IMG/VR virus record: IMGVR_UViG_3300042387_002244
Location: 1 to 21,756 of that record
Reading direction: 5' to 3' (one strand)
Source: a virus
Length of the DNA stretch: 21,756 nt
Shown: positions 4,840-20,354 of the stretch, in pieces
Layout: the number at the start of each line of letters is the position of its first letter
Numbering within the stretch: the first letter of the stretch is position 1
The notes under the pieces: model-generated
The model's database searches: none
Told to the model about the DNA's origin: nothing
What the model saw: only the letters and a program-made list of their open reading frames with translations
Position numbers and translations under genes: made by a program

Positions 4840-5568
4840 ATGTCAAAAGTTGTATTAGCATTCTCCGGAGGTGCTGATTCTTCAGTCCTACTTCATATGG
4901 CAGCTGAAAAGTTTGATGAAGTGTATTGTTTGTTCTTTGATTATGGTCAAAGACATAAGAAAGAATTAGATTGCACACAAAAGCAACTGAAGAGTTTGAA
5001 GAAAAAGGTTGAGATGTTGGTTATTGATACACCATTAAATCTTCTTGCTCCAACTTCTTCTCTTACTAATCCAGATATTGATACACCTGATGTAAGAGAG
5101 ATGAGAGGTGAAGCTCAACCTAAGAGCTATGTAGCATTTCGAAATATGCTATTCATCTCTTATCTTTTGTCTTATGCAGAAGGTATCGGAGCTGACAAGG
5201 TTTGGTATGGTGCAGCTCAAGTTGACTCGTTAGCCGGCTACTGGGATGGAAGCCCTGAATTCTTAAAAAAGATCAATGATGTGGCTGCTTTGAATAGAGA
5301 GCATCGCATTGTTGTTGAAGCTCCTCTTTTGACTATGTCTAAGAAGGATATCATCTTAGAAGGTATTAGACTTGGAGTTAAGTTTAGTGATACTTGGACT
5401 TGCTATGCAGGTGAAGATAAAGCAGATGCATATACACCTTCATCAAGTCTCAGATTGCAAGGGTTTGTTGAAGCTGGATATATTGATCCAATTCCTTACA
5501 AACAAGACTTAACTAATGTTTGGGAAAAGAATAATTGTAAGAAGATATCTTACGAGAATTACCTATAA
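4840..5568 (+). CDS. queC: QueC-like 7-cyano-7-deazaguanine synthase, zinc site altered
   Basis: QueC is a PP-loop ATPase that converts 7-carboxy-7-deazaguanine to preQ0, the precursor of queuosine, archaeosine and phage 7-deazaguanine DNA bases. Visible signatures are the PP-loop SGGADSS (9-15), FDYGQRHKKEL, and the AFRNMLFIS segment; length (242) is normal. Odd point: QueC normally binds zinc with four cysteines, one in SCY/TCY and three in CGxCxxC before LR. Here only C188 remains; the other three positions read D196, T199 and S202 in DAYTPSSSLR. The enzyme may be zinc-free, altered in substrate, or stabilised differently. The start lies 3 nt after the uvsX stop (TAA-AAT-ATG), so it is probably translated by reinitiation. 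The 3' end overlaps a convergent gene by 10 nt. Confidence 0.88.
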   Translation: MSKVVLAFSGGADSSVLLHMAAEKFDEVYCLFFDYGQRHKKELDCTQKQLKSLKKKVEMLVIDTPLNLLAPTSSLTNPDIDTPDVREMRGEAQPKSYVAFRNMLFISYLLSYAEGIGADKVWYGAAQVDSLAGYWDGSPEFLKKINDVAALNREHRIVVEAPLLTMSKKDIILEGIRLGVKFSDTWTCYAGEDKADAYTPSSSLRLQGFVEAGYIDPIPYKQDLTNVWEKNNCKKISYENYL

Positions 5569-6617
5569 AACATTTCTTGTTGTGCAACCTTCTGCCAGAA
5601 GGTCTTAGGTTGGAATCGATCTTTGTTTGAGATAAATTGCACTTTTGGTTTTGCGTTTTCTGTTACAGGCTCTTCTTCATCTTCGAATGGATTAGCAAGA
5701 CGACGTTCAGAATCATCACCAGCTATAGTACCCATTCCATACCCTTCGGTGTCAACACCTGAACGTTGCGCAAAAGTGCGACGTTTTGGTTCGTCTTGTG
5801 GAAATTCAATTGTTGTGGGTTCATGAACAACAACACTAAATTCATCAATTGAAAGACCCAACATTTTAGCAAGAGAAGCTTTAATTGATGCTTCAACTTT
5901 ATTTGATCCAATCTTTTTAACTACCTTAGCAATTGGATCATTTTCTGTAAACTCAATATCAATCATATTTGGAGCTTCTTGATCCACACTAAACTCACCA
6001 CCTTTATTAGCAGCGGTAAAGAATTTTTTGACTTTTTCGTTGTCAATTTCAATTCCTTCTTCACCTACAATTTCAATTAATGTAGTGTTAGCTTCAATTG
6101 TTGAAAGTGGTGATATATCTTCTGCACGAGCTCGTTCAGCTTCTTTTTTAGCTTCTCTTTCTGCTGCTAGCTCTTCAGCTGTTTTTACTTTACGTAATTC
6201 ACCAGCAGCTTTTCCTCTTTCTTCACCACCTTCCATTTGCTGTTTTTTAGCAAATTCACCAGTTCTGTGTTTTGTGGTTTGAAACTTACGACCAATAAAA
6301 TCTCCTAAATTATTTTTTGTATATTCTTTAAACTCATCAGCAATCTCGTCTTTAATCATGCCTTCATCGACAAGTTTCTTAATAAATTCACCAGCTTCAG
6401 CAGCGTATCTTGATCCCTTAAAAGCTGTTCCTTCTGGAACAAGGCCTTTACTTTCTAAGAAATCCATAATAAACTGGAATACAAGAGGTCTTGGTACACC
6501 AACACCTTTATCCATCATAGCTTTTTTAAGATAACCTGTTTGAAAAAGGTTTTCAAAGCGACCAGCTCTTGCTTCTTCGATAATTTCAAGTTTATTGTAC
6601 AGTGAATTAAAATTCAT
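5559..6617 (-). CDS. Charged late-type protein, probably virion-related
   Basis: A 352-residue soluble protein that I cannot assign to a family. The N-terminal ~110 residues look helical; residues about 121-166 form a very charged Ala/Glu/Lys/Arg stretch likely to be coiled coil; the rest is acidic with hydrophobic strands and a basic-aromatic C-terminus (FWQKVAQQEMFYR). There is no signal peptide or membrane segment. An I-E-E/A sequence at residues 13-16 fits the T4 prohead protease consensus (I/L-x-E before A/G), but one match is weak. It is transcribed opposite to the replication genes, from a T4-type late promoter element exactly 5 nt before its ATG, which suggests a structural or assembly role. 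Function is inference. Confidence 0.8.
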   Translation of the reverse strand: MNFNSLYNKLEIIEEARAGRFENLFQTGYLKKAMMDKGVGVPRPLVFQFIMDFLESKGLVPEGTAFKGSRYAAEAGEFIKKLVDEGMIKDEIADEFKEYTKNNLGDFIGRKFQTTKHRTGEFAKKQQMEGGEERGKAAGELRKVKTAEELAAEREAKKEAERARAEDISPLSTIEANTTLIEIVGEEGIEIDNEKVKKFFTAANKGGEFSVDQEAPNMIDIEFTENDPIAKVVKKIGSNKVEASIKASLAKMLGLSIDEFSVVVHEPTTIEFPQDEPKRRTFAQRSGVDTEGYGMGTIAGDDSERRLANPFEDEEEPVTENAKPKVQFISNKDRFQPKTFWQKVAQQEMFYR

Positions 6618-7369: not shown

Positions 7370-8016
7370 TCCAACTAATATCAGCAACTAAAGGAAACTT
7401 ACAAACCACTTTACTACATAATAGCGTTGGTTTTATACACCCGGTAGCTTTTTCAGAGAATAATACCGACCCATTGCCTGTTGTTTATAATGATGCTATT
7501 GATGATTTTCAACAAACAACTGAGTGGCTTGTTTTTGTTCACGATGATGTAATAATTGAAGCACCTGAAGCATTAGAACGTCAACTTGATGTATTAGGAC
7601 ATGACTTCGATGTCGTTGGGTGTGCAGGTACAAGAGAGGCTAAATTACAAGAGCCAGCATTATGGCATTTGATGGGTGATAGATTACAGCATAGAGGTGC
7701 TGTAGCTCACTTAAGTGACTCAACTGGTAAGAAATTTATGACTAGTTTTGGTAGTTATCCTGATCGAGTTATATTAATCGATGGGGTGTTTATGGCTGTA
7801 AAGACAGAAGTCTTTAATAAAGTCAGATTTGACACAAACAATCCAGCTGGCTTTCACTTCTATGACTTAGATTTTTCTATGGCTTGTCATAAAGCTGGCT
7901 ATAAAGTCGGTGTTGGTGATATAGTAATCACACATGCATCACCAGGGTTGAGAAGCTTTACTGATGAATGGAAAAAAGGACAAGAGTGGTTCCTTAAAAA
8001 ATGGAAATCGAAATAA
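7366..8016 (+). CDS. Glycosyltransferase family 2-like protein
   Basis: A 216-residue GT-A-fold-like protein. The segment WLVFVHDDVII (H59, D60, D61) resembles the acidic DxD-type metal and nucleotide-sugar site; GFHFYDLDFSMACHKAGYKV near residues 162-182 and THASPG afterwards are typical of the small glycosyltransferase-like family described as Glyco_tranf_2_5. Together these suggest transfer of a sugar to an unknown acceptor. Translation is coupled to the amidotransferase through a 4-nt ATGA overlap. A strong bidirectional terminator follows immediately after the stop. Confidence 0.78.
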   Translation: MIQLISATKGNLQTTLLHNSVGFIHPVAFSENNTDPLPVVYNDAIDDFQQTTEWLVFVHDDVIIEAPEALERQLDVLGHDFDVVGCAGTREAKLQEPALWHLMGDRLQHRGAVAHLSDSTGKKFMTSFGSYPDRVILIDGVFMAVKTEVFNKVRFDTNNPAGFHFYDLDFSMACHKAGYKVGVGDIVITHASPGLRSFTDEWKKGQEWFLKKWKSK

Positions 8017-8047
8017 AAAAAAGGCGGCTTTAAGCCGCCTTTTTTTT
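8015..8047. terminator. Bidirectional rho-independent terminator
   Basis: GGCGGC / GCCGCC stem (extendable to 8 bp with a minimal loop) at 8023-8039, flanked by a run of A on the left and a run of T on the right. Read on either strand it is a stem followed by about eight U. It separates two convergent genes: the glycosyltransferase (stop at 8016) and the minus-strand DUF1501 gene (stop at 8046). Confidence 0.95.
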
Positions 8048-9305
8048 ATGCTAAGATCTTTTCTATTGGATCAGCTTCGTAAACAACCTCAACTGGTCTT
8101 AAATCAGGTGTCATTAGCTTCTTTCTTGGTGAAACACCAATTAAATGATAGAGAGTAGCAGCTATTTCACCAGGACTTACTGGATTTTCATCAGGTTCAG
8201 CTGCTAAAGCATCAGAAGTACCATAAGCAAAGCCTGCTTTAATACCCCCACCAGCTAAAACAGTAGAAAATACACGAGGCCAATGATCTCTACCGTTTGT
8301 ACTGTTAATTTTTGGTGTACGACCGAACTCAGACGATACCATTACGAGAGTGGATGATAATAAACCACGTTGTTTTAAGTCTGTAATGAAGTATGCATAA
8401 GCTTTATCAAAGTTTACCATGTTAGATTCAAAAGCTTGCTTGATATTTGAGTGGTGATCCCAGCCACCATATGTAACTGTGATCATTCTAACACCTGCTT
8501 CAATTAATCTACGTGTTAAAAGTAAGCGTTGACCAGCTGCGTTGCGTCCATATGCATCACGAACACTATTTGGCTCTTTAGATAGGTCAAATGCTTCACG
8601 AGCTTCTTTAGAAGAAATCATTGCATATGCTTGATTGTAAAAAGAATCCATTGCTTTAATGTTATCAACGTTAGATTCTCTTGTTTTGAAAAAATCATCA
8701 ACAGCACCAAGAAGAGCTTTACGTCTATCAAATTGTTTATCGGAAATATCCCTTGGTGTATTAAGATCTTTAACAACAAATCCAGGATCTTCTGGATTTG
8801 CACCTAAAGCAAATGGTCCATACTTAGTTGATAGATATCCTGTGCCATTTTCTGGTGCAAATTGATTAGGAACTAACACATATGGTGGTAAATTGTTACG
8901 ATTTCCTAATTCATGACTAATAACACTACCAAATGATGGATAAGTTAATGCTGGTGATGGTTTATAACCTGTCAACATATTATGAGTTCCTCTTTCATGA
9001 GCAGCTTCACCATGTGTAACAGAGCGAATTACAGTAAGATTATCAGCAATCTTAGCAGTTTCCTTAAGAAGTTCACCAAAATATACACCATCAATTTTGG
9101 TTTTGATACCACTAAATGGTCCTCTATATTCAGGTGAGCCATTCATCTTGTAATCCCACGATTCTTGATGAGCCATTCCACCTGGCAAGTAAATTTGCAC
9201 AACGGCATTAGCTTTTGGCTGTGTTTCTTGCTCAGCTTTTAACAGTTGAGGTAGTGAAATGCACCCAGCTGTACCGATTTTTAATATTTCGCGTCTGTTA
9301 TACAT
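8046..9305 (-). CDS. Tat-exported DUF1501 protein (copy 1), late-expressed type
   Basis: DUF1501 proteins are exported members of the alkaline phosphatase/sulfatase fold group, abundant in Planctomycetota; their substrate is unknown. The 419-residue protein starts with a twin-arginine signal (YNRREILKIGTAG) followed by LPQLLKAEQ. Family signatures: LPGGMAHQESWDYK, TYGGWDHHSN, SEFGRTPKINSTNGRDHWP, VLAGGGIKAG, and SPGEIAATLYHLIG near the end. Compared with the usual GGxSHxDxFD motif it reads GGMAHQESWD, so one acidic ligand may be changed. It is not a recent duplicate of the copy at 16742. It lies alone, opposite to the replication genes, behind a perfect TATAAATA late promoter, hence probably made late. 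Confidence 0.93.
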   Translation of the reverse strand: MYNRREILKIGTAGCISLPQLLKAEQETQPKANAVVQIYLPGGMAHQESWDYKMNGSPEYRGPFSGIKTKIDGVYFGELLKETAKIADNLTVIRSVTHGEAAHERGTHNMLTGYKPSPALTYPSFGSVISHELGNRNNLPPYVLVPNQFAPENGTGYLSTKYGPFALGANPEDPGFVVKDLNTPRDISDKQFDRRKALLGAVDDFFKTRESNVDNIKAMDSFYNQAYAMISSKEAREAFDLSKEPNSVRDAYGRNAAGQRLLLTRRLIEAGVRMITVTYGGWDHHSNIKQAFESNMVNFDKAYAYFITDLKQRGLLSSTLVMVSSEFGRTPKINSTNGRDHWPRVFSTVLAGGGIKAGFAYGTSDALAAEPDENPVSPGEIAATLYHLIGVSPRKKLMTPDLRPVEVVYEADPIEKILA

Positions 9306-9310
9306 ATTTG

Positions 9311-9318
9311 TATTTATA
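9311..9318 (-). promoter_or_regulatory. T4-type late promoter, perfect TATAAATA
   Basis: On the minus strand TATAAATA is followed by exactly 5 nt (CAAAT) and then the ATG of the DUF1501 gene at 9305. This is the complete T4 late consensus, with the same spacing as at 6623-6630 and 20360-20367. Confidence 0.72.
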
Positions 9319-12874: not shown

Positions 12875-13393
12875 ATGAACCAGGAGATCGAACAACGTAA
12901 CGCTTTATTAGGGCTGTTAGGTACCGTTTATGGTGAATCAAAAAAACTAGATCAAAATTTAGTTGGTAGTTCAACTAATTTACAGCCTACTAGTAACCAT
13001 ATAAAGAACTTGTTTGAGAGGGAGTTGAGAGGTCCTCAACTCCCTCCTCCTCAACCTCAATTTTTACCACCTCCACCTCCTCCAGATAATGCGGTTAATT
13101 TACCTTATGTTATGCCACCACCACAACAACAAAGTGGTCAGGTAAACTTAGTTGATTCTAATGAATTGGTGACCACATTAAAAGGTATAGAATCAAACCT
13201 TGGTAAGTTAGTTGAAATATTCACAGCATATGACATTAAAGTTCAAAAAAAATCAAATCGAAAAATTTCTAAACTCAATCTCGAAGATAAACGACCAGTG
13301 CATCATGAAGGTGGAGAAGGAACAGGTGTCAACAATAGTAACGTCGACGGACAACACCCTGATCCTGTACTCCATACTAAACCTTTCGAATGA
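12875..13393 (+). CDS. Proline-rich protein overlapping the clamp gene
   Basis: A 172-residue unknown. The N-terminal 50 residues are helical, then comes a proline/glutamine-rich linker (about 53-90, including a run of seven prolines), then a short helix (ELVTTLKGIESNLGKLVEIF), then a basic and finally Gly/His/Asp-rich tail. The last ~164 nt are shared, in another frame, with the start of the clamp gene. Such Pro-rich linkers often connect interaction modules; a bridge between SSB and clamp is a guess based on location. The start follows the SSB stop by 2 nt, which supports expression. Confidence 0.65.
   Translation: MNQEIEQRNALLGLLGTVYGESKKLDQNLVGSSTNLQPTSNHIKNLFERELRGPQLPPPQPQFLPPPPPPDNAVNLPYVMPPPQQQSGQVNLVDSNELVTTLKGIESNLGKLVEIFTAYDIKVQKKSNRKISKLNLEDKRPVHHEGGEGTGVNNSNVDGQHPDPVLHTKPFE
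13018..13046 (+). repeat. 12-bp perfect inverted repeat (hairpin) inside coding sequence
   Basis: GAGGGAGTTGAG (13018-13029) and CTCAACTCCCTC (13035-13046) are exact reverse complements around a 5-nt loop. The stem is GC-rich against the AT-rich background and lies in the proline-rich gene about 185 nt before the clamp start. There is no T run directly after it, so it is not a standard terminator; it could affect mRNA stability or ribosome access. Confidence 0.6.
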
Positions 13394-13940
13394 ATTCGAA
13401 AGATCTTTAAATATACCCGATTTAAAAAAGCTGAACCGAGTACTTGATTGCATTGAATCAGATGATTTTAACTTAAATGTTGGTCCAAACTATTTAGAGT
13501 ATAAGTCACCTGCAATTAAATTCAAATATCATTTATTTGAAGATGATTTTCTTGTACCACCTCCTATTAAACCTGAAAAGATAAATGGATTTGAAACATC
13601 TTTCTCTTTTGAACTAACAAAAGATGATTTTGCAAAAATTAACAAAGCATCTACATTTACAACTGAAACAAATAAGATTTATTTTTATCAGGAAGATGAT
13701 GTGGTTAAGTGTGAGTTAACTGATAAAGCAAGACATAATACTGACTCGTTTCAATTGACTGTTGGAAAAAATTGTCAAGGTGATGAATTAAAAATTCTAC
13801 CGGTTAGTTTTGATAATTTTAAACTTATTAACGCTGAAAATGTAAAAGTATCTGTGAATAACAAGTTTGGTGTTTTAATATTTGATATTACCCAAGACAA
13901 CCTTAAATTAAGATATATCTTATCATCACTTACACAATAA
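13230..13940 (+). CDS. 45: Sliding clamp, DNA polymerase processivity factor (T4 gp45-like)
   Basis: Forms the trimeric ring that holds polymerase on DNA and, in T4, also activates late transcription. About 237 residues against 228 in T4. The N-terminus (MTLKFKKNQIEKFLNSISKI), a following ITSTD-like strand, the NIPDLKKLNRVLDCI helix region and the final beta-rich part ending LRYILSSL follow the clamp pattern. ATG 13230 is chosen because it aligns with the T4 start region; ATG 13212, six codons earlier, is possible. The first ~55 codons overlap the proline-rich gene out of frame. The clamp loader genes that follow 45 in T4 are absent here. If T4-type late promoters are used, this clamp is the expected coactivator. 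Confidence 0.85.
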   Translation: MTLKFKKNQIEKFLNSISKINDQCIMKVEKEQVSTIVTSTDNTLILYSILNLSNEFERSLNIPDLKKLNRVLDCIESDDFNLNVGPNYLEYKSPAIKFKYHLFEDDFLVPPPIKPEKINGFETSFSFELTKDDFAKINKASTFTTETNKIYFYQEDDVVKCELTDKARHNTDSFQLTVGKNCQGDELKILPVSFDNFKLINAENVKVSVNNKFGVLIFDITQDNLKLRYILSSLTQ

Positions 13941-14296: not shown

Positions 14297-14674
14297 ATGA
14301 GTGATGAAAAACCAAAAAAGACTAAAAAATCATCACTAAAAAAAACTTCACCAAATCAATCTAAACCTGATAGTGTTATTGATGAACAGGATGCTGTCAA
14401 TATCCAACATTTAATTAGTGAATTAATTCAACAGCGTACACAACATATTGTAGCACGCCGTAATGTTGAAGATGTTAATACTGCATTAGTAAATACTATT
14501 AGTGAATTCTTAAACTGTTTTATGATTATAGGGTTTACCGGTGAAGGTTCACCGGTAGCTATTACAAAATCAAATAATCTTATGGAAAAAGATGCATTAC
14601 AAACCTTATTGCAGAAGTTTTTTACAATCAACATGTTGAAAACTCAAGATGGTTTGATGGGTGAACTTGATTAA
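14297..14674 (+). CDS. Unknown 125-residue protein with basic N-terminus
   Basis: Begins with a Lys/Ser-rich, probably disordered tail (KPKKTKKSSLKKTS), followed by helices (NIQHLISELIQQRTQHIVARRN, ALVNTISEFLNCFMIIGF) and a C-terminal helical part. The basic tail could contact nucleic acid. Start ATG 14297 is preferred over ATG 14243 because it lies 4 nt after the preceding stop, like other starts in this unit, whereas 14243 would overlap the previous gene by 50 nt. No family recognised. Confidence 0.65.
   Translation: MSDEKPKKTKKSSLKKTSPNQSKPDSVIDEQDAVNIQHLISELIQQRTQHIVARRNVEDVNTALVNTISEFLNCFMIIGFTGEGSPVAITKSNNLMEKDALQTLLQKFFTINMLKTQDGLMGELD
14536..14557 (+). repeat. 10-bp perfect inverted repeat in coding sequence
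   Basis: TACCGGTGAA (14536-14545) and TTCACCGGTA (14548-14557) are exact reverse complements with a 2-nt centre. In RNA this would form an 8-bp stem with a 6-nt loop. It encodes GFTGEGSPVA in the 125-residue gene. It could be a protein-binding palindrome or chance; no T run follows. Confidence 0.4.
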
Positions 14675-14678
14675 TGTT

Positions 14679-14933
14679 ATGGCTCCAGAGAAATATAAAG
14701 CATACGCGGTAACTCGTGGTACTTACCTAGGTGAAATGCTCATTTGGATTGAAAACGTTGCAGAAGACTATGGGTTTATTTCAGTTCCTAAAAATATTAA
14801 CAGATTAATACCTAAAGATAAGTTTAAATTTGGTATTGAAAATGAAATACTAGATATAGTTGATACTATACCAGAAAACGTGTATAAAATACTACACGCA
14901 CAGTACATGTATAACAAAATACACAAAAAATAA
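14679..14933 (+). CDS. Small unknown protein, 84 residues
   Basis: Compact globular-looking protein: YAVTRGTYLGEMLIWIENV, GFISVPKNINRLIPKDKF, then a helical end. No membrane segment or cysteine motif. The ATG at 14679 (MAPEKY) is chosen over an in-frame GTG at 14661 because it lies 4 nt past the previous stop. It looks like one of the small conserved proteins of T4-type phages, but I cannot name it. It is the last gene before the DUF1549/DUF1501 pair. Confidence 0.65.
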   Translation: MAPEKYKAYAVTRGTYLGEMLIWIENVAEDYGFISVPKNINRLIPKDKFKFGIENEILDIVDTIPENVYKILHAQYMYNKIHKK

Positions 14934-14952
14934 TTAAATAATATAGGTTCAT

Positions 14953-16737
14953 ATGAAAACGTTATTTTTTATCCTAATGTTTGCGGTAACTGCTGTTGCT
15001 GCTACTGTCGAGCAACTCAATAATTATAGTGGTTGGATAGATTCAGTGTTAGAAAAGCAATATACCGCTATAAACATTACACCTTTGAATCGAATTAACG
15101 ATGATACGTTCGTTCGCAGAGCATATCTTACTATTGTTGGCCGTAATCCTACATATGAAGAGTATGAAATGTTTAGTAAGGTAAATGACCCAAACAAAAG
15201 ACAAGGATTAATCCAGTTTTTATTGAAACACCCAGGTCATATTTCACATATGTTCAATTTCTGGGCTGAATCTTTAAGATTAAGAGATAGATTAAGCAAT
15301 ATCAATAACTTTTCTGGTGGTCCTTATATTGATTATATTAAAGATTCAATTGCAGCAAATAAACCATATAATAAATTTGTAACAGAGCTATTAACATCAA
15401 CCGGTTCATATTATGATAACCCAGCTACTGGGTATTTCTATCGTGATTTAGGAATGCCTTTAGATAATCTTATTGCTACTGGTAAAGTATTCATGGGTAC
15501 TGATATTGGTTGTGCACAATGTCACGACGACCCATTCCAAGACTTTACTCAAATGCAGTTCTATAAGATGGCCGCTATGTTTAATCAGGTGGAACTTAGA
15601 GGTCGTGGTAAAGATAAAGATCCAGCTGTTGCAGCTCGTCAAAAAGCTTTGAGAGATGAAGTAGATGCTTTGATTAAAGCTGATCCAATGAAAAATCGTG
15701 GATTGAACAATACAATTAATAACTTTGTAGCAGCAATGCGTGCAAATCTTGAAATTGATGGTGGTAGACAATTAAAATTACCACATGATTACAATTATAA
15801 AGATGCAAAACCAAATGATGTTGTGGAACCTGCAGTGCTCACAGGTAAAGCTCAAATTAAAAACAAAGATGATATGAGACAAGATGTGGTTAGCTGGTTA
15901 GTTAACCCAGAACACCCAACATTTACTAAAAATATTGTCAATCGCTACTGGAAATGGGTGTTTGGTAAACATATTATTGATGATTATGATAATATCCATG
16001 ATAGTGAAAAGCTAAATGGTGAGCTTATGAACACCCTTGCTAAAATTATGGTAAGTGTTGGGTATGATAATAGACAATTCCTTTTTGTGCTTCTCAATAC
16101 AAAGCTTTTCCAACGTGAACTTTACGATGGAGCATATTCTAACTCTGAAAAGTTTGTGTTTATTGGACCCGTTAAACAAAGATTAACAGCAGAACAAATG
16201 TGGGATTCAGTTATGGCTGTTGCAGTTGATAGACCTGATTCATTTAAACTTACATTCCAAGACGAATATGTTAAGGTAATGAGATATACCATTGAAGATC
16301 TTACTATTGATCGTTTGAAAGCAAAGAACGAAGAATATCAAAAGATTATGCGTTCAAAATATGAAACAGCACCGAAATATCGTAATTACCCACTAGTTAG
16401 AGCATCTGAAGTAAATGATAACAGCCCTGTTAATACAATTCTAGAACAACTTGGCCGTGGTGATCGTGAACTTATTGATACATCTTCAAGAGAAGGTTCT
16501 GTTACACAGGTGATTTCGTTCATGAATGGCCAACTAGCTGAGGTAGCTGTTAATAAAGATACATATCTCGCTAAAAACATTGCTGGTAAACCTCCAGGTG
16601 ATACTATTGAGATTATTTTCAAGTCTGTTTTATCAAGAAAACCAACAATGGATGAAAAAGCCACGTTTGTTGGTGTGCAAGATGATGACATCATCTGGGC
16701 ACTTATCAATAGTTCTGAATTTAAATTTAATAAATAA
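14953..16737 (+). CDS. Secreted DUF1549/DUF1553 protein with CxxCH motif (Planctomycetota type)
   Basis: A 594-residue exported protein of the DUF1549-DUF1553 type, known as planctomycete cytochrome-associated proteins of unknown reaction. A Sec signal peptide (MKTLFFILMFAVTAVAA) leads. DUF1549 covers roughly residues 25-205: INDDTFVRRAYLTIVGRNPTYEE and VFMGTDIGCAQCHDDPF, with C187-A-Q-C190-H191 forming a c-type haem motif. DUF1553 covers roughly 310-580: MRQDVVSWLVNPEHPTFTKN, NRYWKWVFGKHIIDDYD, RLTAEQMWDSVMAV, and LSRKPTMDEKA. The DUF1501 gene starts 4 nt after the stop, the same pairing found in Planctomycetota. No premature stops, so it is probably functional. Host-derived acquisition is inferred. 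Base composition looks like the neighbours, suggesting it is not very recent. Confidence 0.93.
   Translation: MKTLFFILMFAVTAVAATVEQLNNYSGWIDSVLEKQYTAINITPLNRINDDTFVRRAYLTIVGRNPTYEEYEMFSKVNDPNKRQGLIQFLLKHPGHISHMFNFWAESLRLRDRLSNINNFSGGPYIDYIKDSIAANKPYNKFVTELLTSTGSYYDNPATGYFYRDLGMPLDNLIATGKVFMGTDIGCAQCHDDPFQDFTQMQFYKMAAMFNQVELRGRGKDKDPAVAARQKALRDEVDALIKADPMKNRGLNNTINNFVAAMRANLEIDGGRQLKLPHDYNYKDAKPNDVVEPAVLTGKAQIKNKDDMRQDVVSWLVNPEHPTFTKNIVNRYWKWVFGKHIIDDYDNIHDSEKLNGELMNTLAKIMVSVGYDNRQFLFVLLNTKLFQRELYDGAYSNSEKFVFIGPVKQRLTAEQMWDSVMAVAVDRPDSFKLTFQDEYVKVMRYTIEDLTIDRLKAKNEEYQKIMRSKYETAPKYRNYPLVRASEVNDNSPVNTILEQLGRGDRELIDTSSREGSVTQVISFMNGQLAEVAVNKDTYLAKNIAGKPPGDTIEIIFKSVLSRKPTMDEKATFVGVQDDDIIWALINSSEFKFNK
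15511..15525 (+). other. CxxCH c-type haem-binding motif in coding sequence
   Basis: TGT GCA CAA TGT CAC encodes Cys-Ala-Gln-Cys-His, residues 187-191 of the DUF1549/DUF1553 protein, within the family-conserved G-x-x-CAQCH-D-x-PF block. Whether haem is bound depends on export and a host cytochrome c maturation system. Confidence 0.7.
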
Positions 16738-16741
16738 TAAT

Positions 16742-17977
16742 ATGAATACACTAACCCGCCGTAATTTTGTACTTAACCTAGCGTCTACTGGGTTGGGTGT
16801 AACCGTTCTACCACATGTTATAGCTGCACCAGCTAGCAAAAAAGCAGAACATATCATTTATCTGTTTATGAATGGTGGTATGAGCCATTTGGATACTTTC
16901 GATCCAAAAACTAATGCTGAAGTTAAAGGTGAATTCAATTCTATTGCTACAAATGCAGATTATCACATTTCTGAACACTTACCTTTAATGGCTAAGCATG
17001 GTGATAAGATGGCAGTTGTTCGTTCTATGATGGTTACAACGGGAGATCATGCAGGTGCGCAGTATTTGCAAAGAACATCATTCAAGAAGATTGGTACAAT
17101 TATTCACCCTAATATGGGAGCTTGGATGTGTCATTTTACTGAAGATAACAAACCAAAAGTCATCCCACAAAACGTTTTAATTGGTGGTGGTGCAGATCAT
17201 CCTGGTTCTGGTTGGATGCCAAAGAAATATTCTCCAATTCCAGTTACAGATCCAATGAGAGGTCTTGATAATACCAAGCTTAAAGATGCTGCTGAGTTCT
17301 CTAAGAGAGTTGCGATCTTGGATAAGCTTGAAAGAGATGCAAATAAGATTATTAACCCAGCTCAAAAGTCATACGCTGAGTTTTATGATCAAACTATTCG
17401 TCTTCTTAACTCAAAAGATCTTGATGTGTTCGATCTTTCTAAGGTAGATCAAGCAACAAGAGAAAAATATGGTAATAACCGTTTTGGTCAAGGTGTTTGC
17501 TTAGCAAAACGTCTTATCCAAGAAGGTGGTTGTAAGTTTATTGAAGTAACAGATGGTGGTTGGGATACTCACGTGAATAACTTCGAAGCTCTTGAAAATA
17601 AACTTAAGATTCTCGATCAAGCTGTCAATACCCTTATTGAAGATCTTAAATCTTCTGGTCTTCTTGAGAAAACTCTTATCGTAATTGCAACAGACTTTGG
17701 TAGAACGCCAAATATCAATATTAACAACGGTAGAGACCACCACCCAGGTGCATTTAGCGGTGTTCTCATTGGTGCAGGTATCAAAGGTGGTCAAGTATAT
17801 GGTAAATCTGATGAAAAAGGTATGAAAGCAGTTGAATCACCTGTAAGCCCAGCTGATTTTAATGCTACTATCGCTGCTGCTGCGGGATTACCTGTTGAAG
17901 AGATTGTAATCTCACCAGAAGGTAGACCATTCAAGATCGCAGATAAAGGCAAGCCTGTACAACAACTTTTAGCTTGA
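16742..17977 (+). CDS. Tat-exported DUF1501 protein (copy 2), paired with DUF1549/DUF1553 gene
   Basis: A 411-residue member of the DUF1501 family (alkaline phosphatase/sulfatase-like fold, substrate unknown). The twin-arginine signal is LTRRNFVLNLASTGLGV, R6 and R7. Signatures are closer to the family norm than in copy 1: NGGMSHLDTFDPK (D51, D54), TDGGWDTHVNN, ATDFGRTPN, NGRDHHPGAFSGVLIGAGIK, GQVYGKSDEKG, and SPEGRPFKI near the end. These Asp and His residues are candidate metal ligands. ATG 16742 is chosen because it lies 4 nt after the previous stop and starts the Tat signal; a longer in-frame opening from 16580 would add sequence overlapping the upstream gene. Both proteins are exported, one by Sec and one by Tat, so they probably act together outside the cytoplasm. 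Confidence 0.94.
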   Translation: MNTLTRRNFVLNLASTGLGVTVLPHVIAAPASKKAEHIIYLFMNGGMSHLDTFDPKTNAEVKGEFNSIATNADYHISEHLPLMAKHGDKMAVVRSMMVTTGDHAGAQYLQRTSFKKIGTIIHPNMGAWMCHFTEDNKPKVIPQNVLIGGGADHPGSGWMPKKYSPIPVTDPMRGLDNTKLKDAAEFSKRVAILDKLERDANKIINPAQKSYAEFYDQTIRLLNSKDLDVFDLSKVDQATREKYGNNRFGQGVCLAKRLIQEGGCKFIEVTDGGWDTHVNNFEALENKLKILDQAVNTLIEDLKSSGLLEKTLIVIATDFGRTPNININNGRDHHPGAFSGVLIGAGIKGGQVYGKSDEKGMKAVESPVSPADFNATIAAAAGLPVEEIVISPEGRPFKIADKGKPVQQLLA

Positions 17978-18001
17978 TTGTTTAAGGAAATCATCTATAA
18001 T
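17974..18001 (+). promoter_or_regulatory. Sigma70-like promoter for exonuclease gene
   Basis: TTGATT (17974-17979), 16-nt spacer, perfect TATAAT (17996-18001), then exactly 6 nt (AAGGGT) before ATG 18008. The -35 box overlaps the DUF1501 stop codon. This is the best promoter of its type in the window and supports 18008 as the start. Confidence 0.6.
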
Positions 18002-18007
18002 AAGGGT

Positions 18008-18874
18008 ATGACAACTCTTATTATAGATGGTAATAACCTAGTGCACCGCTGTTACTGGGTAGCTAATCAAACAAAAACGCAAGAAAATAGCTTTTTGCAT
18101 GTGTTTATGTTTATCAATGCGATTAAATCATATGTAGAGAAGTATAAACCTGATAAGATTTTTTGCTGCTGGGATGAAAAACACGAAAACAACACTAACG
18201 AACGTAAAGAGCAGTTTGCTGACTACAAAGGCAACCGAGATAAGGTATATAGTGCTGAAGTTCATGCAAAAAACTCTTATATTAAGAAACTTCTTGATTC
18301 TCTCGGTGTAAAGAACTTCTTTCCGTTACGTTTGGAAGCTGATGACTGTATGGCTTTCTTATCGAAAGAAATGCCAGGTAAAAAGGTTATCGTTACAGTT
18401 GATCGAGACATGTACCAATGCATTAATGAGCATGTAAAGGTGTATGACCCTATTCGCAAACGTGAAGTTAACGTTAAAAACTTTGAAGAAATCGTTAAAG
18501 TTCCTTTAACTCGGTTTTTAATTGATAAATGCTTTAGAGGTGATAAGTCTGATAACGTTCCAGGTGTAACTGGAATGGGTTCTAAAGCTATCGAAAAGTA
18601 TTTCAATGGTAAATATAGCACAACTGATGAGCAGAATAATCAGTTTAAACGCAATTATGAACTTTTTCGATTAGACAAATATTCTTCATCTACAGATGAA
18701 TTGAGCTGGTATAAAGAACAGCTTGAAATTGAACAACCTCATAATTTCAAGCTGTTTAAACAACATTGCGAAGAAATGAACTTGAGTTCTGTTCTTTCAA
18801 ACGAAAGTAAATGGTATAATGCATTTTGTTTTGGAAAAGACTTTAATGGGTATATATTGAATTTGTTAAAATGA
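18008..18874 (+). CDS. rnh: 5'-3' exonuclease / RNase H (T4 Rnh-like, FEN family)
   Basis: Removes RNA primers and flaps from lagging-strand fragments. 288 residues against 305 for T4 RNase H. The FEN active-site acids are visible: LIIDGNN (D7), CCWDEKHE (D56), LEADDCMAF (E110, D112, D113), TVDRDMYQ (D132, D134), and FRGDKSDNVPGVTGMGSKA (D179, D182), the last being the helix-hairpin-helix region. All appear intact. ATG 18008 is preferred over an in-frame TTG at 17978 because the protein then starts MTTLIIDGNN, standard for the family, and a TATAAT box sits 6 nt upstream. Its stop overlaps the primase start (ATGA), tying the two lagging-strand genes together. Confidence 0.94.
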   Translation: MTTLIIDGNNLVHRCYWVANQTKTQENSFLHVFMFINAIKSYVEKYKPDKIFCCWDEKHENNTNERKEQFADYKGNRDKVYSAEVHAKNSYIKKLLDSLGVKNFFPLRLEADDCMAFLSKEMPGKKVIVTVDRDMYQCINEHVKVYDPIRKREVNVKNFEEIVKVPLTRFLIDKCFRGDKSDNVPGVTGMGSKAIEKYFNGKYSTTDEQNNQFKRNYELFRLDKYSSSTDELSWYKEQLEIEQPHNFKLFKQHCEEMNLSSVLSNESKWYNAFCFGKDFNGYILNLLK

Positions 18875-19932
18875 TCTTACCTGAAGAGTATATCATAGAA
18901 AAGTTCTATACATTTGGTTACCAACCGAAGCATAATAGGTATAACAAAACATATCAGTGTGGTTGTCCTATTTGCAGAGAGGGTAAATCACTTGGATTAA
19001 AACGTCGTTGTTTCTTTATACCGAAGAACAACAATATATTCTGTCATAACTGTGGTTGGAGCTCAACTCCATATAACTGGATTAAAAAAGTTTCAGGTTT
19101 AGATGATCAACAAATATTAAACGAAGTTTCAAAGTTTGATTACAGTAAAGAAGTATCATTTAAAGACGTAGAAATTAAAAAAGAGTACGTAGCATCCACA
19201 CTACCTAATGATAGTATCAATTTATTTGATATGCAGCAATTATCTTTTTATAAAGATGATAAAGTTGTAAAAGAATGTATTGAACTAATGAAGGATCGTC
19301 GGTTATTTACAGCTGTAAATAGACCAAAGTCGTTGTATATTTCTTTGAAAGATAAAACGCATAAGAATCGTCTAGTTATTCCATTTGTTGATGAGAGGAA
19401 TGAGATTGTGTTTTACCAAACAAGAACGGTTTTACAACAAGATCTTAGATCTAAACCAAAGTACATGTCTAAAATAGGGAGCGACAAAGCTCTTTATGGT
19501 ATTAACAATATAGATACAGATCTAAACTATTTGTTTTTGTTTGAAGGACCTATTAATGCTATGTTCACCAAAAATGGACTAGCAGTCGCAGGTATTTCAA
19601 AAGGTAATCATAATTTCACACCATTACAACAGCAACAACTCAAACGATACGCATTGATGAATCATATTTGGGTGTTAGATTCTCAATGGATTGATAAAAC
19701 ATCATTAGTGAAAACGAGAAAGCTGTTAGAACAAGGTGAACGAGTCTTTATCTGGCCAGAAAAATATGGTAGAGAGTTGAAAGACTTTAATGACATTTGT
19801 ATGAAGTATAGTTTGGATGAAATAACTCCAGAATTTATCATTTCAAATAGCTATACACATTTGCAAGGGATGGTATTACTTTCGCAAATAATAAAGGCGC
19901 ATAGTAGTTATGCGCCTTTATCTGGTAAATGA
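18871..19932 (+). CDS. 61: DNA primase (T4 gp61-like)
   Basis: Makes RNA primers with the gp41 helicase; 353 residues against 342 for T4 gp61. The N-terminal zinc-binding domain has CPIC (C32, C35) and CHNCGW (C58, C61). The TOPRIM part has YLFLFEGPINAMF with the catalytic Glu. The later acidic site reads WVLDSQWIDKTS, with one Asp followed by Ser-Gln instead of a classical DxD; the related T4 enzyme also departs from the bacterial DnaG pattern here, but I could not align it. The last codons lie within a 13-bp hairpin (19891-19921). The start overlaps the exonuclease stop as ATGA. Confidence 0.9.
   Translation: MILPEEYIIEKFYTFGYQPKHNRYNKTYQCGCPICREGKSLGLKRRCFFIPKNNNIFCHNCGWSSTPYNWIKKVSGLDDQQILNEVSKFDYSKEVSFKDVEIKKEYVASTLPNDSINLFDMQQLSFYKDDKVVKECIELMKDRRLFTAVNRPKSLYISLKDKTHKNRLVIPFVDERNEIVFYQTRTVLQQDLRSKPKYMSKIGSDKALYGINNIDTDLNYLFLFEGPINAMFTKNGLAVAGISKGNHNFTPLQQQQLKRYALMNHIWVLDSQWIDKTSLVKTRKLLEQGERVFIWPEKYGRELKDFNDICMKYSLDEITPEFIISNSYTHLQGMVLLSQIIKAHSSYAPLSGK
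19891..19921. terminator. Hairpin terminator-like element within the primase 3' end
   Basis: A 13-bp perfect inverted repeat, ATAAAGGCGCATA and TATGCGCCTTTAT, around a 5-nt loop (GTAGT). The right arm ends in TTTAT and the left arm begins in AT-rich sequence, so it could work in both directions. It lies between convergent genes, starting 42 nt before the primase stop ends and 26 nt from the stop of the minus-strand gene. The stem overlaps the final primase codons, which is unusual. Confidence 0.7.
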
Positions 19933-19946
19933 TGTGAAAGTCTAAA

Positions 19947-20354
19947 TCAAACGTTCTTATACTTCGGATCACGTGCAGTAGCAAGATAACCTTGTAATAC
20001 CTGTGAAAGAGCTGCTAAATCCATTGCAGAACGAGCAATTTTCTTTGTTTCAGTGGATCTAATCTTATCAAGAATTGTATCAGGAATAGCATTTTTAAGA
20101 GTCATCTGGATTGAATCACCGGTTGGTGAGTTAAGATACTTTACAAACTCATCAAGCTTTGTAATCCAACTCTGGATTGTTTGAACCATTTGTTGCTGTT
20201 GCTGTGCTACTGCAGTAGCAGCTTGTGCATCAACATCTGCACCTAAGTCAGCTGGAGCAACATCACCCTCAAGTGTTGCAGCCATTGCTGCTTCATCAGG
20301 GGTCTGTTCGTCTTGTTCTAAAAATGTTAAAAACTTTTTACCGAATTTACTCAT
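19947..20354 (-). CDS. Small late-type protein, unknown
   Basis: A 135-residue protein, not recognised. N-terminus basic (MSKFGKKFLTFLEQ), then an Ala/Asp-rich acidic low-complexity region with a Gln run (about 20-55), then a helical domain (QSWITKLDEFVKYLNSPTGD, ARSAMDLAALSQVLQGYL). No signal peptide or membrane segment. Transcribed opposite to the replication genes from an AATAAATA element exactly 5 nt before ATG, like the 352-residue and DUF1501 genes, which points to late expression and perhaps a virion or scaffold role. Confidence 0.75.
   Translation of the reverse strand: MSKFGKKFLTFLEQDEQTPDEAAMAATLEGDVAPADLGADVDAQAATAVAQQQQQMVQTIQSWITKLDEFVKYLNSPTGDSIQMTLKNAIPDTILDKIRSTETKKIARSAMDLAALSQVLQGYLATARDPKYKNV

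Follow-up and report, generated by a model that had tools for sequence, protein, structure and literature searches.

Exported PSCyt2-PSD1 and DUF1501 genes of host origin, preceded by late-type promoter boxes, in T4-like phages: a possible role in egress

The window, the whole stretch of DNA analysed here, is the IMG/VR virus fragment IMGVR_UViG_3300042387_002244, 21,756 bases in length. It contains a T4-type replication region encoding a family-B DNA polymerase, a RecA/UvsX-like protein, a DnaB-type helicase, a gp32-like protein, a clamp (13212-13940, phrog_223), an exonuclease (17978-18874, phrog_107) and a primase (18871-19932, phrog_47), and it also carries QueC, glutamine amidotransferase and glycosyltransferase genes. 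Two plus-strand genes are located between a small gene (14661-14933) and the exonuclease gene. The first, CYT (14953..16737), encodes an exported protein of 594 amino acids with DUF1549 (PSCyt2) and DUF1553 (PSD1) domains and the Sec signal peptide MKTLFFILMFAVTAVAA. The second, B (16742..17977), encodes a 411-amino-acid DUF1501 protein with a Tat twin-arginine signal. B starts with the ATG at 16742, 4 nt after the CYT stop codon, whose last base is 16737. The preliminary description had reported this pair as two full-length exported genes with their family motifs kept, lying within a T4-type replication block, and all of this was borne out by the Pfam profiles, the signal and haem motifs and the PHROG matches around the pair. 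As an account of the whole finding it was incomplete, since a second DUF1501 gene and the late-type promoter boxes had been missed. The second gene, A (8046..9305, minus strand), is placed between the glycosyltransferase and helicase genes and encodes a 419-amino-acid protein with a twin-arginine start. A and B are about one third identical, and A belongs to a different subfamily in the tree. The end of A is marked by a terminator-like, bidirectional hairpin (8013..8049, minus strand), which separates it from the glycosyltransferase gene. On the other side of CYT-B, a TATAAT box (17996..18001, plus strand) lies just upstream of the likely true start of the exonuclease (ATG 18008) and would supply this gene with its own promoter downstream of the insert.

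CYT matched PSCyt2/DUF1549 (E 5.6e-36, 124.9 bits; curated cut-off 29.8) and PSD1/DUF1553 (E 2.1e-26, 93.3 bits; curated cut-off 28.5) in Pfam. It contains a single CxxCH motif, the c-type haem motif, in the form CAQCH (15511..15525, plus strand), which is invariant in our alignment of CYT proteins (A2). Exactly one CxxCH per protein was found in 65/65 full-length viral CYT proteins, and in phages close to the window the sequence reads CAQCHDDP, with D in place of the H that otherwise follows the motif. Covalent attachment of c-type haem takes place outside the cytoplasm, so the Sec signal of CYT, which is conserved across distinct viral relatives, fits the haem motif, and CYT may carry haem c. 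The structure model of CYT was fairly confident (pLDDT 84), and no solved structural relative was found for it; a weak resemblance to phycobilisome-linker/DUF4214 folds covered part of the protein and was rejected. Complete host PSCyt2-PSD1 relatives are 695-893 amino acids long, whereas the phage protein is shorter and lacks the extra host segments. In another contig (G019), the start of a minus-strand protein (L105, 14592-15398) resembles by eye an SHD1-like segment of host PSCyt proteins, a likeness that Pfam did not confirm.

Both DUF1501 proteins matched their family over the full profile (B, E 6.7e-100, 335.4 bits; A, E 3.5e-107, 359.4 bits; cut-off 27). The twin-arginine, assigned from the motif without a signal predictor, occupies residues 6-7 in B and lies near the start in A; R6 is invariant and R7 nearly so in our alignment of DUF1501 proteins (A3). 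B was modelled with AlphaFold2 using viral and bacterial rows (pLDDT 83). Foldseek of this model returned sulfatases, sulfamidase and LtaS (E to 8.5e-8, TM about 0.4, probability 1.0), and B is accordingly predicted to have the fold of the sulfatase/alkaline phosphatase superfamily, as in carrageenan sulfatase (6bia) and LtaS (2w5q). The SDxG of sulfatases is metal-binding, and in a profile search the E/D-F-G of B was aligned with the SDxG of solved sulfatases. D275, H277 and H333 are invariant across A, B and the host proteins, and the metal-ligand motifs are present in 218-219 of the 219 viral DUF1501 proteins. B differs from sulfatases in that no formylglycine nucleophile motif (CxPSR/SxPSR) was seen in the DUF1501 alignment and in that its score with Pfam sulfatase PF00884, 20.2 bits, falls below the curated cut-off of 25. 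For these two reasons B was assigned to DUF1501 only. On the model the DUF1501 proteins would act as metal hydrolases.

The late promoter is TATAAATA in T4 and NATAAATA in the cyanomyovirus S-PM2 (PMC2984593). The exact T4 core, TATAAATA, is found 13 nt upstream of A (9311..9318, minus strand). A TAAATA late-type box with the full form TTAAATAA precedes CYT (14935..14940, plus strand), and another before B (16731..16736, plus strand) overlaps the end of CYT and may be coincidental coding sequence. The complete TATAAATA proved too strict a criterion on its own, and the counts that follow are for its core, TAAATA. In the phage group it is sharply positioned 15 to 11 nt upstream of the start, in 189/888 ORFs, and it was found upstream of 24/38 head-region genes versus 0/47 replication genes. 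With CYT starts set by the signal peptide, TAAATA was present upstream of CYT in 22/29 distinct sequences (p 2e-13 versus replication genes, 1e-8 versus all other genes; these values are optimistic, as related sequences were taken as independent after a 90% identity filter). It was also present upstream of A in 7/10 closest relatives. The box before the module persists despite differing flanks, including inside the replication block. From these T4-type motifs, CYT-B and A are probably transcribed late. Shine-Dalgarno-like AGGAG is almost absent in the phage group, and with TAAATA at 11-15 nt from the start many transcripts may be leaderless. In the window as a whole TAAATA is rarer than expected (26 versus 43 in shuffles). 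Within the replication block, TAAATA boxes also lie immediately before two minus-strand genes without annotation (5559-6617 and 19947-20354); these genes, too, may be late inserts.

G002, a contig from another metagenome, shares both insertions and their junctions with the window (89-96% amino-acid identity), and at least six further distinct contigs have the module at the replication-block position. The same junctions in independent IMG/VR contigs rule out an assembly chimera, which the preliminary description had named as a refuting outcome. In three more distant relatives (G005, G017 and G019) the corresponding replication genes adjoin one another, uninterrupted by CYT-B or A. The DUF genes of distant relatives are found elsewhere. 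They form an A-CYT-B block that immediately precedes the genes for tail-sheath stabiliser, portal, head protease and capsid, or they are close to a QueE-type gene or to ribonucleotide reductase. The module therefore behaves as mobile cargo. In IMG/VR, 250 places had a confirmed DUF1501 relative. The places fetched gave 229 unique viral DUF1501 proteins, which fell into 97 clusters at 90% identity; CYT fell into 43 clusters, and in 38 of these a same-strand DUF1501 gene follows CYT. The pair, sought in viral collections as the preliminary description had proposed, is widespread in uncultured phage contigs, and no phage in which it has been characterised was found. B and CYT are absent from all 50,697 named phage records. 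Among 17 long contigs with a related polymerase, both families occur in the same three and neither in the other 14; some of these contigs may be incomplete, though one of 221 kb has neither family. This distribution indicates that the module is optional.

Relatives of CYT were sought in 84,980 species genomes covering all prokaryote phyla. All 14 confirmed loci belong to Verrucomicrobiota, mostly Verrucomicrobiaceae, and the next gene is a B-like DUF1501 gene at every locus with downstream room. The best identity of B to Verrucomicrobiota proteins is 48%. A shows about 58-64% identity to a subfamily present (E <1e-160) in 37/40 Verrucomicrobiaceae genomes, and in three examples this host subfamily lies near a larger PSCyt protein. 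PSCyt2-PSD1 and DUF1501 pairs of Verrucomicrobiota and Planctomycetota share families, order, adjacency and export with phage CYT-B. The scan, in which every prokaryote phylum was covered, gave no support to the Planctomycetota-type source of the preliminary description, and the Verrucomicrobiota pairs are taken as the direct source of the phage pair. In trees sampled without Planctomycetota, viral B grouped in a single clade (100/99), as did viral CYT (85/80), and the branching orders of the two were much alike. CYT-B accordingly looks like one old acquisition, while A appears to be a separate one from a separate host subfamily, its unity being less certain. Judged from these bacterial relatives only, the phage host is most likely a member of Verrucomicrobiota. 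A search for prophage or host DNA matches in 388 Verrucomicrobiota genomes gave good matches for the DUF genes only, other short matches being at chance level.

Between the window and G002, dN/dS was 0.084 for A, 0.093 for CYT and 0.056 for B, compared with 0.03-0.09 for core genes and 0.13 for the glycosyltransferase. CYT, B and A are under purifying selection, which upholds the earlier view that the host-derived exported module is kept functional. In the comparison of the window with G005, identity is 78-89% for the DUF genes but 35-51% for the polymerase, gp32, clamp and exonuclease, and among the genes compared B alone has a clearly unsaturated dS (0.89). Such values suggest that the DUF genes were exchanged between phage lineages, although strong constraint would add to their likeness. 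CYT-B and A are thus intact, selected, export-signal-bearing, host-derived, mobile and late-box-preceded genes of T4-like phages.

Clustering of the neighbours at 55 representative loci gave no constant neighbour beyond CYT and DUF1501 themselves. Holin-like genes (phrog_6384, phrog_785; holin superfamily III; E 7e-3 to 2e-5 in the copies tested) lie directly upstream of A in several head-type contigs. In three marine relatives Amidase_2 endolysins (E down to 7e-26) adjoin CYT-B or lie a few genes off, and in G022 an exported NlpC/P60 protein is encoded between A and CYT. No lysis gene adjoins the module in the window or in the other replication-block contigs, and CYT, B and A had no PHROG match, including to any holin, endolysin or spanin family. 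The association of lysis genes with the module, which was found post hoc, is suggestive. A matrixin-type metalloprotease gene (PF00413, E 7e-9; L123 4063-4542, L020 7070-7594) was observed just before the holin gene and A, or before CYT. A role in defence or counter-defence was considered and dropped, as PADLOC gave no match.

The explanation that we place first, and hold tentatively, is that CYT, B and A are late exported enzymes altering the host envelope or a surface polymer around egress. CYT would be exported by Sec late in infection and gain one haem c outside the cytoplasm. Like many host pairs, it would act with the Tat-exported putative metal hydrolases B and A, and together they would modify a polymer of the host's envelope or surface that bears phosphate, sulfate or other esters. 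This change would let lysis and progeny release succeed in a host with a polymer-rich surface. The late boxes, the kept export signals, the sulfatase/LtaS-type fold, the ligand motifs and purifying selection all support the egress role, as do the lysis-type neighbours in several lineages and host PSCyt gene neighbourhoods, which hold sulfatases and carbohydrate-binding domains (PMC5615132). We infer this role, together with haem binding, hydrolase activity and substrate, from these lines of evidence. Against it stand the lack of a constant neighbour, the lack of a lysis gene beside the module in the window and in other replication-block contigs, a late timing that is read from a motif, the missing sulfatase nucleophile motif and the failure to find a solved relative of CYT. 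Since 14/17 long relatives do without it, the module is not a general part of lysis. The preliminary description had suggested effects on the host envelope, extracellular polymer handling or periplasmic redox state; any of these may apply, and the late boxes and some of the lysis-gene neighbours favour the envelope.

The main rival is that these are auxiliary metabolic genes which boost one of the many host PSCyt/DUF1501 units to yield more sulfate, phosphate, sugar or periplasmic electron flow. It agrees with the great expansion of the host families, each of six Verrucomicrobiota genomes having 48-101 DUF1501-like matches, with the sulfatases and carbohydrate-binding domains near host PSCyt genes and with the optional nature of the module. 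An APS-kinase-like gene that follows B in G004 also speaks for it. However, late-type boxes are less expected of genes that feed replication, and the lysis-type neighbours in several lineages and the retention together of two or more different DUF1501 subfamilies also tell against metabolism, which we consider less likely than the egress role, though a live rival. APS-kinase-like P-loop kinases (PF01583) were observed at L123 9637-10089 and L078 8385-8837 (both E about 1e-7) and at L014 7293-7733 (minus strand); in G004 the gene is immediately downstream of B, and in relatives it is close to A or CYT. In a 222-kb contig (L236, 10648-13079) two sulfotransferase-like proteins, recognised by motif and eye only, are encoded close to a DUF1501 gene. 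A general sulfation theme was rejected, as a motif scan of the other flanks found nothing beyond the kinase-like gene of G004 and these two proteins.

A further live rival, though an improbable one, is that the proteins change the surface against competitors, removing or masking a receptor so that progeny do not re-adsorb to the dying cell or debris, or so that superinfecting phages are excluded. Export signals, the predicted hydrolase fold and late boxes fit this as they fit egress, from which present evidence does not distinguish it; a beta-barrel outer-membrane-like gene near CYT-B in G019 and the glycosyltransferase gene adjoining A in the window are further points in its favour. Superinfection exclusion genes, however, are usually early and small. 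A place in or on the virion, with action on the envelope at entry, is highly improbable: late boxes, the place directly ahead of the tail-sheath stabiliser and portal genes of head-type contigs and a module between baseplate genes and others in L374 would suit it, whereas the kept Sec and Tat signals would export the proteins from the cytoplasm, the site of virion formation, and positions vary widely. That the module is a selfish or neutral passenger, or an assembly artefact, functionless for the phage, is hardly credible despite its mobility and its absence from many relatives, being refuted by dN/dS below 0.1 and by recurrence in 43 CYT and 97 DUF1501 viral clusters and in independent contigs with the same junctions; the phage-type late boxes also speak against it.

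Cyanomyovirus-type auxiliary genes of T4-like phages are likewise host-derived, optional, selected and exchanged between phages; CYT and the DUF1501 proteins differ from such cargo as exported haem-motif and DUF1501 proteins. The lysis cassettes of phages (holin, endolysin) are comparable in late-type boxes, envelope destination and, in several lineages, neighbourhood, whereas the module has no homology to lysis proteins, is absent from most relatives and is not lysis-adjacent in the window. Host pairs occur in tens of copies, while the phages have one or few, with a 4-nt gap and late-type promoters. In the open literature searched, no paper linking the DUF1549, DUF1553 or DUF1501 families with phages was found, consistent with the earlier remark that no phage role had been described; the only mention of DUF1501 in a phage was a weak match of a 61-amino-acid protein.

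The module would extend the known cargo of phages by a kind that is exported and possibly redox-linked. The phages keep two to three trimmed genes under late-type boxes, which point to an envelope role and offer a minimal unit to express and assay. If the reading as late egress genes is true, they would provide a handle on the biochemistry of very expanded bacterial families. The module probably also marks phages of Verrucomicrobiota, from which, to our knowledge, few phages have been isolated.

An unrelated phage lineage, which has a DnaE-type polymerase (phrog_405), carries 3-4 DUF1501 genes in a row; they belong to different subfamilies and have Tat-type starts. Large phages of Verrucomicrobiota that are not related to one another may repeatedly have acquired at least two different DUF1501 hydrolases, in many cases together with a haem-motif partner. 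In the T4-like group these may have turned into genes devoted to late egress, which would serve beside holin and endolysin as a further component that opens the envelope and is adapted to hosts whose surface is special. We regard this wider proposal as unlikely. In marine contigs with a DnaE/PHP-type polymerase (L261, L307, L313 and L316), the clustered DUF1501 genes have Shine-Dalgarno-like sites and not the T4 late box.
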